Below, piece by piece: positions 13,924 through 20,050 of a DNA stretch of 64,000 nt. Source of the DNA: an uncultured bacterium (GTDB taxonomy: Bacteria; Elusimicrobiota; Elusimicrobia; Elusimicrobiales; Elusimicrobiaceae). Where the stretch lies: positions 1 through 64,000 of the forward strand of contig CASFXV010000002.1 of assembly GCA_949298795.1 (NCBI GenBank). Reading direction: 5' to 3'. Position 1 is the stretch's first letter; each line of letters begins with the position of its first letter. A model generated the notes under the pieces. The model searched no databases and was not told where the DNA came from. It was given only the letters and a program-made list of their open reading frames with translations. The position numbers and the translations under genes are program-made.

Positions 13924-15615
13924 ATGGATAAAGAACAAGACGTTATCGTAGCCAAAAGCGCGGGGTTCTGCCCCGGCGTAAAACGCGCCATAGATAAAGT
14001 GCTGGAGCTGGAAGCCGCCGGCAAAAAACCCATTTACACCATTGGTCCGCTGATACACAACAAACAAGTAACCGATATGCTGGCCGCCAAGCAGATTACT
14101 TCCATAGACAAGCCGCAGGAAGCGCAAGACAAATCCGGCGTATTGGTTATCCGCGCGCACGGCATTACGCCGCAGTTTCAACAAGAAATTGAATCCTGCG
14201 GCATGGAAGTGGTGGACGCCACCTGCCCGCTGGTAAAACGGGCGCATGACGTTATCTCCCAATACGCCAAACAAGGCTATGATACCGTAATTGTGGGGGA
14301 TGGAGGACACGCGGAAGTAATCGGCCTGTTGGGTTATACCCAAGGGCGCGGCACCGTGGTATCCGGCCCGGAAGAAGCCCAAAAACTTCCCCCTTTTAAG
14401 AAAGTAAACGTAGTATCCCAAACCACGCAAAAAGAAAGTGTTTTTTATCAGACCGCCCAAATTATTAAAGACAAAGCGGACGAATGCCAAATATCCAACA
14501 CCATCTGCCAACCCACCAAAGACCGCCAAAAAGAAACGGTGGAACTGGCCAAAAATGCGGATTTGGTCATTGTGGTGGGCGGCAAACACAGCGCAAACAC
14601 CGCGCGCCTGGCCCTGCTGTGCCGCGGCCTAGCCCCGCAGGTGCTGCACATAGAAACCGAAAGCGAACTGCAGCCCGAACAAGTGCTGCGCGCCAAACAA
14701 ATATTTATTACAGCCGGGGCCTCCACCCCCAACTGGGTGATAGACAAAGTGGCTAATTGGGTGCGCCAAACCCGCCAGACACACAACCGTTTTTCTTTGC
14801 CCACTTTCTTTTATAACGGGTGGAAGTTCTTTGTAAAATACTCTTTTTACACCGCGTTCGCGGCAATGGCTTTGGCTTATGTTTGTATGAAGTTGCAAGG
14901 GGTGCGCACGGACTGGAAGTTATTATGGTTTGCGTGGTTGTTTGTGTTTGGGTTAACTTCCGTTAACCACGCGGCGGAGCAAGCCCCCACCCGCGTAAGG
15001 AATTTGTCTTACACCTTGGGTTTTACCGCCTGTGCGGGGGCGTTGGTATTATCGGCCTTTACCGGCTGGCAGGTGTTGCTGTTGGCGGCCATCTTTTTAG
15101 CGGCGGGGATTTTTTACCCGTTTAGGCATATACTGCACTCCAAGATAGCCTCTTTCCCCGGCACTAAAGACGTTGCCACCGCGCTGGGCTGGGCGTTTGC
15201 CTGCGCCTGGCTGCCCGCCTATGCCCATGGGGTGCCTTTTCATAAAGCGGCGTATTTGGCCGTATTCTATGCGGGGCTGTTGGTGTTTACGCGCTCAGTC
15301 ACGCTGGGGTTTTCTTCCGCCAATAAAGATTTAATGGTAGGCAAGGAAAGCTTCTACAAAGCATTTGGCATGACCGCCACCAAATGGGCCGTTACGTTTA
15401 TTTTAACCGCGCTTACCGGCGCACTGGTTGCTTTATGGTTTATGCCGTGGAAACCGCTGCTGACGGGTATGCTTCTTATTGGGAACGTATACACGGTTTT
15501 TATTGTAATATATTATTATAGCCATGTGACGGCCCGCAATATCAAGCAAGAAACTTTAATTGACGGCCAATTCTTTATTTTATGGCTGTTTTGTTACCTG
15601 ACCAAATTATTCTAA
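13924..15615 (+). CDS. ispH: IspH (HMBPP reductase) fused to a UbiA-like membrane domain
   Basis: Residues 1-285 are a complete 4-hydroxy-3-methylbut-2-enyl diphosphate reductase, the last step of the MEP isoprenoid pathway. It has the three cluster cysteines Cys16 (FCPGV), Cys101 (ATCPLV) and Cys195 (NTICQPT), His45, His79 and His129, and the catalytic Glu131. Residues ~300-563 form seven or eight membrane helices that resemble UbiA-type prenyltransferases, with helix spacing and a loop reading NKDLMVGKES where UbiA has DxxxD. The Asp-rich Mg2+ motifs are degenerate (SVNHAAEQ in place of NDxxD). The fusion would tether isoprenoid precursor formation to the membrane, or pair it with prenyl transfer; this is inference. 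First gene of ispH-pfkA-rlmB. Confidence 0.88.
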   Translation: MDKEQDVIVAKSAGFCPGVKRAIDKVLELEAAGKKPIYTIGPLIHNKQVTDMLAAKQITSIDKPQEAQDKSGVLVIRAHGITPQFQQEIESCGMEVVDATCPLVKRAHDVISQYAKQGYDTVIVGDGGHAEVIGLLGYTQGRGTVVSGPEEAQKLPPFKKVNVVSQTTQKESVFYQTAQIIKDKADECQISNTICQPTKDRQKETVELAKNADLVIVVGGKHSANTARLALLCRGLAPQVLHIETESELQPEQVLRAKQIFITAGASTPNWVIDKVANWVRQTRQTHNRFSLPTFFYNGWKFFVKYSFYTAFAAMALAYVCMKLQGVRTDWKLLWFAWLFVFGLTSVNHAAEQAPTRVRNLSYTLGFTACAGALVLSAFTGWQVLLLAAIFLAAGIFYPFRHILHSKIASFPGTKDVATALGWAFACAWLPAYAHGVPFHKAAYLAVFYAGLLVFTRSVTLGFSSANKDLMVGKESFYKAFGMTATKWAVTFILTALTGALVALWFMPWKPLLTGMLLIGNVYTVFIVIYYYSHVTARNIKQETLIDGQFFILWLFCYLTKLF

Positions 15616-17827: not shown

Positions 17828-19051
17828 TTAACGCAAATAAAGATCTATGGTGTCTATTTGGTTATCAGTTTGGTCAAACACTTTAAGGGTTAATTTACGG
17901 TCCACAATTTCCCCCAAAGCATAATGATAGGCCGCCACATAGCGTGCGGTGGAAGAATCCCCCGTTATGCGTTTTTGCGGTTCCTGGCCGGCGGCCCCCA
18001 AGGTAACATACGTTACCCCGCGCACATTGGGCTCCCCGCGAAACATGGGGAAGGTACGCTCATAATTGGGGGAATTGCCTTGCAAAACCAAATTTACCTT
18101 ATAATTTTCAAACAGTTTAATTAATTTGGAAGCGGCCTCATTATTAGGCGTAATCGGCCCCGTGGAATATAATGGGGCGTTAATCACCACAATTTTCCAT
18201 TTTCCTTCCACATTGGAAGTAAGCGCCGTTTTCAGCCATTTCATTTGGGCGGAATCCTCTTCCAAGCTGGGCGCCCATACAGCGCCGTATATGGCATTGG
18301 CATCCAAAAAGATAAAACGGGCGTTGGCGGTGTCAAACGTATAATATTTGGGAGTGCCGGGGCCCCAGCTCATGCTGTGAAAATTAGAATAGTTGGCCCG
18401 CAGAAAAGATTTACTGCTTTGTTCCGCGCGGTCCGGCCCGTATTCATTCGGCCCCAAGGCAACCAGCAAAGGCTTGCGGGCCAACACATCTTTAAACGGG
18501 GTAAAAAATTCCCGGTCGGCGTCGGCATTTAAACCGCTGTGCGTGATGTTTCCGGTATGAATGAAAAAATCAGCCTGTCTTTCTTTCATGCGGGCCGCCA
18601 AGGCGCGGCGGGCTTCAGCGGCAAAATCCGGCGGGACAATGCCGTCTTCCCCCTCAACCGGCTGAGGGGCGCCCGTATTGCCCAGCGCCAAGAATTTGAC
18701 CTCTTTGCGCTCCGGAGAGAATAACGTGCGAAAACTTCCCTCCAGCGGGGCTTGTACCCCGTCTTGGGCTTGGTTGTATACATACAAGCGGTAGCAATAA
18801 TCCTGATTAGGCACTAAACCATACAAAATGGCTTTGTGGGAGGTGGAAGACGGGGTAATCGTCATCAGTTGGTTGCAGCGCGGGACGGGGCCGTATTCCA
18901 GCCAAGAAGGCGTATCCTCATCCGTCTGCCAACGCAAGACCATGGTGCTTTGGGTAGGGTCTTCTATATACGGGCCGCGCACAATCTGCGCCGCGGCGGC
19001 AGGCAACAAGGCCGCACATACTGCAAAAAAGGTAAAAACGGTGTTTCTCAT
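17828..19051 (-). CDS. Exported purple-acid-phosphatase-like protein lacking metal ligands
   Basis: 407 residues. A signal peptide (to AAAAQ) is followed by a fibronectin-III-like domain (residues ~23-110) and a calcineurin-like phosphoesterase domain, the order found in purple acid phosphatases. Every block of the catalytic signature can be aligned, but the metal-binding residues are replaced: GD-x-G is LGNTG (Asn125), GDI is HTGNIT (Asn168), GNHE is GPNE (200-203), the H-x-P block is INAPLY (Asn291), and GHxHxYER is GNSPNYER (Asn326, Pro328). The fold should survive without hydrolysis, which suggests a binding or structural role in the periplasm. No ribosome site is clear. It is a single-gene unit. 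Confidence 0.8.
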   Translation of the reverse strand: MRNTVFTFFAVCAALLPAAAAQIVRGPYIEDPTQSTMVLRWQTDEDTPSWLEYGPVPRCNQLMTITPSSTSHKAILYGLVPNQDYCYRLYVYNQAQDGVQAPLEGSFRTLFSPERKEVKFLALGNTGAPQPVEGEDGIVPPDFAAEARRALAARMKERQADFFIHTGNITHSGLNADADREFFTPFKDVLARKPLLVALGPNEYGPDRAEQSSKSFLRANYSNFHSMSWGPGTPKYYTFDTANARFIFLDANAIYGAVWAPSLEEDSAQMKWLKTALTSNVEGKWKIVVINAPLYSTGPITPNNEAASKLIKLFENYKVNLVLQGNSPNYERTFPMFRGEPNVRGVTYVTLGAAGQEPQKRITGDSSTARYVAAYHYALGEIVDRKLTLKVFDQTDNQIDTIDLYLR

Positions 19052-19153
19052 ATCTTTATTTATTTTACTAAAATATACCCGGCTATAGGCCAGTTAATAA
19101 AAGTATATTAAAAAACCCGCGCGGGCTAACTTAAATTTTGCTAAATTAATAGT

Positions 19154-20050
19154 ATGAGAAAATTATTTTTACTTTTAACCTTAACCGCTTTTCCCTCTTT
19201 TATGGGACAGGCAAAAACGTTGGACGCAAGAGCGTCTTATTTATGGTCTTCCGATAAGAACCAAGCCATGGCTTCCTTATCCGTAGCGCCCACTTATAAT
19301 ACACGGGCCAGCCTAGTGGCGCGCTATGTGAAAGACATGCAGGATTATTCTTTCGGCCGTTTAAAAGACCCTATTTATTCCGTCTATCTTCCGCTGATCT
19401 TTCAGCTTGAATTATTAGATATTGAACTGACCCCGTTTTATTATTTTAAACACAATGCCGATAACCCTGCCTATCAAGACGCCTATGCCTACGGCGGCAC
19501 TTTTGCATTAACCATGTTAATGGAAAATGACCAAGTAAACGACATTTACACCCGCGCGCGTTTGGGCGCCACTTACGCGCACCAACAAGGCACCTTATTT
19601 ACTAAGGACGCCGCACCGGAAAACACAGACTATGCCCAAGTGGCATATTTCTTACAGTTAAGCCACAGCATGTTCCAAACCTACCGGTTGGAAGCCACCG
19701 GGGCGGCCTTTCAATATCCGGACGGGATTACCGGCGTTACCGCTTTTCGCGGGGTATTAAACCAACAAGATTTAGTGGCCCTGCAAACCCTGGACATTAC
19801 GCGCGATTTGCGCAAATACGCTTTAGGCGGGCGCTTTGTACGTATGTGGGCGGAGTCAGGCTCTACATTATATATCGGCTATTCTTTTACCGAAAATTAC
19901 ACGGCCGACCCGGACCATTCTTTTATTATCGGCAATTCGTTCCCTCTTGTGAAAAACGTATTTTTTGACATGGCCTACAACCATATAGAAACAACCAGCC
20001 ACAAAAATAAAAGAGACATCTTTTATTTAGGGTTTGGAACCTCATTCTAG
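19154..20050 (+). CDS. Predicted outer-membrane beta-barrel protein, unknown function
   Basis: 298 residues with signal peptide RKLFLLLTLTAFPSFMGQA. The rest is rich in alternating aromatic and polar residues (RASLVARYVKDM, LTPFYYFKHN, FYLGFGTSF) and ends in Phe, as expected for a barrel inserted by BamA. I do not recognise the family. The ATG follows TAAATT plus six bases with no ribosome site, like the other leaderless starts in this window. The next gene, a sensor kinase, starts 9 bases downstream, so they are probably co-transcribed. Confidence 0.6.
   Translation: MRKLFLLLTLTAFPSFMGQAKTLDARASYLWSSDKNQAMASLSVAPTYNTRASLVARYVKDMQDYSFGRLKDPIYSVYLPLIFQLELLDIELTPFYYFKHNADNPAYQDAYAYGGTFALTMLMENDQVNDIYTRARLGATYAHQQGTLFTKDAAPENTDYAQVAYFLQLSHSMFQTYRLEATGAAFQYPDGITGVTAFRGVLNQQDLVALQTLDITRDLRKYALGGRFVRMWAESGSTLYIGYSFTENYTADPDHSFIIGNSFPLVKNVFFDMAYNHIETTSHKNKRDIFYLGFGTSF

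Follow-up and report, generated by a model that had tools for sequence, protein, structure and literature searches.

As a rule, pseudoenzymes are regarded as one-off paralogues, and the phosphoesterase fold of Vps29 acts as a protein-interaction scaffold in retromer. In Plasmodium GAP50 the fold of the purple acid phosphatases (PAPs) serves as an anchor (PMC8949495), acid phosphatase activity also being reported (PMC8949495, PMC4256932), and typical metal ligands are found in only 35 of the 77 PAPs of Brassica napus (PMC11819708). No description of a bacterial PAP pseudoenzyme was found in the literature searched, which is no proof that none exists. Here, a PAP-like gene at 17828-19051 was analysed in a stretch of 64,000 nucleotides (the window) from contig CASFXV010000002.1 of an uncultured member of the Elusimicrobiaceae. 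Its product is probably an exported, folded PAP-like pseudophosphatase that retains the two-domain scaffold and the layout of the former active-site cleft and works by binding in the envelope or periplasm.

Relatives are referred to below as the family of the window (f1, six genera sampled), its sister family (f2) and more distant families (f13-f15). When the window protein is aligned with PAPs, residues N125, N168, H171, P201, N202, N291, N326 and P328 stand for D, D, Y, N, H, H, H and H. The register is fixed by neighbours that are kept, namely G124/T126, G167, G200/E203-Y204-G205, P293-Y295-S296 and G325/Y330-E331-R332-T333, and in it the earlier note proves correct in having read Asn at 125, 168, 202, 291 and 326 and Pro at 201 and 328. 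That reading omitted an eighth position: the tyrosine of the PAP motif GDxxY is replaced by H171 in the window protein and by E, S, Q or D in the ligand-bearing orthologues of f2. The metal-ligand set of a catalytic PAP is therefore missing, and none of the seven ligand columns holds Asp, Glu or His. Columns at least 97% conserved in the ligand-bearing orthologues comprise 87 non-ligand and seven ligand columns; the window protein retains 64 of the former, including 16 of the 17 within motif blocks, versus none of the latter (Fisher p = 2e-4). Since neither metal position keeps an acidic or His ligand of the standard set, binuclear-metal phosphatase chemistry is not expected from the sequence. 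As a control, four other metallophosphoesterase genes of the same genome were inspected, of which three, as far as readable, keep GNH[E], among them a UshA-like one of 516 amino acids with a leader. No spare catalytic orthologue was found in the same genomes at orthologue-level scores.

The PAP-like fold superfamily, with an Fn3 (fibronectin type III)-like domain followed by a calcineurin-like phosphoesterase domain, is recognized in the window protein by fold, domain order and sequence homology. In Pfam, Metallophos was matched above the cut-off (7.3e-6) and Pur_ac_phosph_N slightly below it (1.4e-5). A sequence search of solved structures returned PAPs only (6git, 9.6e-5), a profile of the ligand-bearing orthologues reached PAPs at up to 1.7e-31, and the closest database records belong to uncultured Elusimicrobiales bacteria (96% identity). 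A first AlphaFold2 model from 11 close homologues was poor, with a predicted local distance difference test (pLDDT) score of 51, and was replaced by one from 23 sequences, in which twelve ligand-bearing PAP-like sequences from public contigs joined the 11 homologues. The final model reached a pLDDT of 80.3 and a predicted template modelling (pTM) score of 0.83, with residues 214-234 poorly modelled. Plant PAPs ranked first when it was compared with the PDB by Foldseek (E 2e-22 to 3e-19), led by lupin PPD1 (3zk4, E 2.4e-22, template modelling (TM) score 0.69-0.70) and including the kidney bean enzyme (1kbp, E 3.2e-19, TM 0.68); these were followed by Plasmodium GAP50 (3tgh, 5.2e-13) and Vps29 (1.8e-6). 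The PAP fold is thus predicted to be intact. Superposition on plant PAPs, the Pfam matches and the column counts all bear out the claim of the earlier note that the Fn3 and phosphoesterase architecture and the neighbours in each signature block are preserved. Cys59 and Cys86 of the Fn3-like domain are conserved in both f1 and f2. The signal-peptide-like N-terminus points to export, with a probable location in the envelope or periplasm.

Within the genus, the non-ligand residues of the motif blocks are more conserved than the rest of the protein (0.887 versus 0.763, permutation p < 1e-4), a contrast that is weaker in the ligand-bearing orthologues (0.828 versus 0.753, p = 0.017). Such a conserved neighbourhood, in which the potentially catalytic residues H165, Y204, Y295, Y330, E331 and R332 are all kept, might reflect a cleft repurposed for a metal-independent reaction. 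This is unlikely, although it survives better than the other alternatives, because the same residues are also kept in the ligand-bearing orthologues and the replacements at the ligand positions differ by lineage, unlike those of a new active site. It can be observed that N125/N168 are commonest in f1, E125/G168 occur in g7, g10 and L130, and G125 occurs with D168 kept in L129.

It is less likely again that the protein remains a metal-dependent hydrolase, with displaced ligands or one surviving metal position. All 31 ligand-bearing representatives of f2 carry D, D, N, H, H, H and H in the same columns as the replaced residues of the window protein, so that the ligands of its family were lost, not displaced. 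In f13-f15 all seven ligands are present and the Tyr is visible in GDxVY. Furthermore, no newly conserved metal-type residues were found beside the old site, and the acidic or His residues that are conserved in the family alone (E52, H72, E114, E315 and D384) fall outside the motif blocks. The pattern of ligand loss recurs, with variations, in every genus of f1, which excludes sequencing error, and no sequence of f1 retains more than three of the seven ligands. On the other side, some members of the window's genus carry D168, and genus g15 of f1 keeps H291 and mostly H326, with D/N168 and the two His often remaining there (L111 and L114). One metal position may therefore survive in g15, where a single-metal site is conceivable.

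The loss was stepwise. The Tyr was likely lost first, before f1 and f2 split, because the position is already E, S, Q or D in ligand-bearing f2; likely next was N201 across f1, together with D125, H202 and H328 with few exceptions, and then H291 and H326 in the window's genus. A careful tree, inferred from an alignment stripped of the ligand columns, supports orthology and places f1 as a clade (support 97/93), its long-branch member L123 being unplaced. Ligand-free lineages of f2 branch from within ligand-bearing ones: L129 groups with L043/L044, L130 and L070 fall inside the clade that holds g5, and further such lineages are g7 and the group of g17, g3 and g9. A constraint to a single loss costs 54 log-likelihood units, and one to a single loss within f2 costs 38. 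Moreover, L129/L064 and L130 are classified in genus g5, the other sampled members of which bear ligands, and genome classification therefore supports repeated loss independently of the tree. At least about three independent losses (f1, the early f2 genera and g5) are suggested by these sequences, and five or more probably occurred. The pseudoenzyme reading of the earlier note stands, with two refinements: the ligands went stepwise and apparently several times rather than once, and one of the two metal positions may survive in some sister genera. Separately, in L076 (genus g4), which is otherwise ligand-bearing, the first His of GHxH in block V is replaced by Tyr (QGYNHNYERT), a possible first step of loss.

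Each of the 68 good-quality genomes of the order, among the 101 relatives searched, carries the gene. The ratio of nonsynonymous to synonymous substitution rates (dN/dS) between the window gene and its counterparts in four close species is 0.05-0.09, and the genes beside it have similar values. Relative to adenine deaminase, divergence is 3.57 in ligand-free versus 2.97 in ligand-bearing sequences, a rise of only about 20% after loss. Decay under relaxed selection in a reduced, host-associated genome, with no function left, is very improbable: the small genomes of f1 (mostly about 1.1-1.8 Mb versus 2-4.5 Mb for most of f2) and the continued drift of the ligand columns among N, A, S, G and P would fit it, but it is largely refuted by this purifying selection, the near-universal retention, the hyperconserved flanks and an open frame in every full-length copy of f1. 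Catalytic residues have been lost while fold and purifying selection were kept, as in a pseudoenzyme, and the exported pseudoenzyme proposed in the earlier note is the reading best supported by the predicted fold, by selection and by retention throughout f1.

Across f2 the gene lies downstream of adenine deaminase (TIGR01178). This arrangement, usually with the stop codon of the one overlapping the start codon of the other by 4 bp, is shared by ligand-bearing lineages and several ligand-free ones, and the overlap persists in ligand-free members such as L068, L069 and L129. This two-gene unit, seen at L041:3879-6841 and about 30 other f2 loci, suggests a phosphatase of purine-related origin. 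In f1 adenine deaminase is mostly absent and was found in four genomes of the window's genus. That ligand loss follows the loss of adenine deaminase was considered and rejected, since ligand-free members of f2 keep the coupled gene. Repeated loss with the operon kept suggests that a non-catalytic role was in place before the metal site was abandoned. The ancestral protein was probably bifunctional, a phosphatase that also served for structure or binding; this would account for repeated ligand loss from a gene that itself stayed, as did its place in the operon and the residues beside the ligands. In the window protein, the neutral, Asn/Pro-lined cleft and the surrounding loops would hold a partner protein or a small ligand in the periplasm or envelope, a binding or scaffolding role that we infer. 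A broader proposal is more tentative and, in our judgement, somewhat short of an even chance: throughout the order this exported bacterial PAP-like protein may serve the envelope in a non-catalytic way that is essential, or nearly so, and older than the loss of catalysis, the metal site having been discarded independently five or more times.

Several points weigh against the binding pseudophosphatase and its history. The motif blocks are located at strand ends of the core, and their conservation may therefore be structural, not functional. The approximately unbiased (AU) tests against a single loss overall and within f2 are marginal only (p-AU 0.049 and 0.047, respectively), and long branches are involved. 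Furthermore, metal-independent activity or unforeseen metal binding is compatible with the sequence of the window protein.

Table 1. Features of the PAP-like gene and its divergent flank, in window positions
Feature	Position	Strand	Basis or remark
Putative exported PAP-like pseudophosphatase gene, 407 amino acids, ATG start	17828-19051	-	Open reading frame, Pfam, AlphaFold2 model, Foldseek
Signal-peptide-like N-terminus, residues 1-21, MRNTVFTFFAVCAALLPAAAA/Q	18989-19051	-	Sequence read directly; homologues with hydrophobic N-termini
N-terminal Fn3-like beta domain, residues 24-110	18722-18982	-	Pur_ac_phosph_N match 31-94, model beta strands, conservation
Block I, residues 121-128, LALGNTGA; first ligand Asp replaced by N125	18668-18691	-	
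Block II, residues 163-175, FIHTGNITHSGLN; bridging Asp replaced by N168, PAP Tyr position H171	18527-18565	-	
Block III, residues 197-206, VALGPNEYGP; Asn-His of GNH[D/E] replaced by P201 and N202	18434-18463	-	
Block IV, residues 287-297, IVVINAPLYST; ligand His replaced by N291	18161-18193	-	
Block V, residues 321-334, LVLQGNSPNYERTF; both His of GHxH replaced by N326 and P328	18050-18091	-	
Divergent intergenic region, 102 bp	19052-19153	.	Divergent arrangement retained across most of f1
Divergent neighbour, 298 amino acids, leader and C-terminal Phe, outer-membrane-barrel-like; candidate partner only	19154-20050	+	

The divergent neighbour, for which no Pfam or PDB match was found, is an order-wide single-copy protein of 280-300 amino acids. 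It is adjacent in f1, where a histidine kinase, a small protein and a permease follow it, and most of f2 has it too, at an unlinked position, so that adjacency alone does not establish partnership. As a general cause of ligand loss it was rejected, because it is unlinked in f2 and absent from genera g3, g9 and g17, which are also ligand-free. Elsewhere in the window, an open reading frame of 563 amino acids (13924-15615, plus strand) looks like IspH, the 4-hydroxy-3-methylbut-2-enyl diphosphate (HMBPP) reductase, fused to a UbiA-like membrane prenyltransferase; its cognate in L005 has only 299 amino acids and is followed by a separate frame of 461. In f13, a second, divergent metallophosphoesterase lies directly upstream of the PAP-like gene (L133:4042-5103 and L134:4635-5699).

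A single orthologue has apparently crossed the line from enzyme to non-enzyme several times, its ligand-bearing and ligand-free versions being otherwise similar, as with L130 and L129 beside ligand-bearing relatives. Such pairs allow direct tests of the non-catalytic functions of a phosphatase and of the order in which its ligands disappear; if the reading is true, repeated discard of the metal site with the protein kept would be a natural replicate experiment in the origin of pseudoenzymes. For annotation, it should be noted that 'metallophosphoesterase' in Elusimicrobiaceae does not imply phosphatase activity.

Compared with known systems, the window protein shares with the plant high-molecular-weight PAPs (1kbp, 3zk4 and sweet potato 1xzw) the Fn3-like/phosphoesterase order, a TM score of 0.68-0.70 and five motif blocks in register; it differs in being bacterial and smaller and in carrying other residues at all seven ligand positions and at the catalytic histidine. 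Vps29 is similar in its calcineurin-like phosphoesterase fold, but is cytosolic, of a single domain and only remotely related. The ligand-deficient plant PAPs are likewise PAP-like proteins without metal ligands, although they are paralogues in large families, whereas here an entire bacterial family has one orthologue, and that one is ligand-free. For the proposed role the nearest precedent is GAP50, in which a PAP fold anchors proteins; unlike the window protein, it is a eukaryotic membrane anchor with reported phosphatase activity and no Fn3-like domain.
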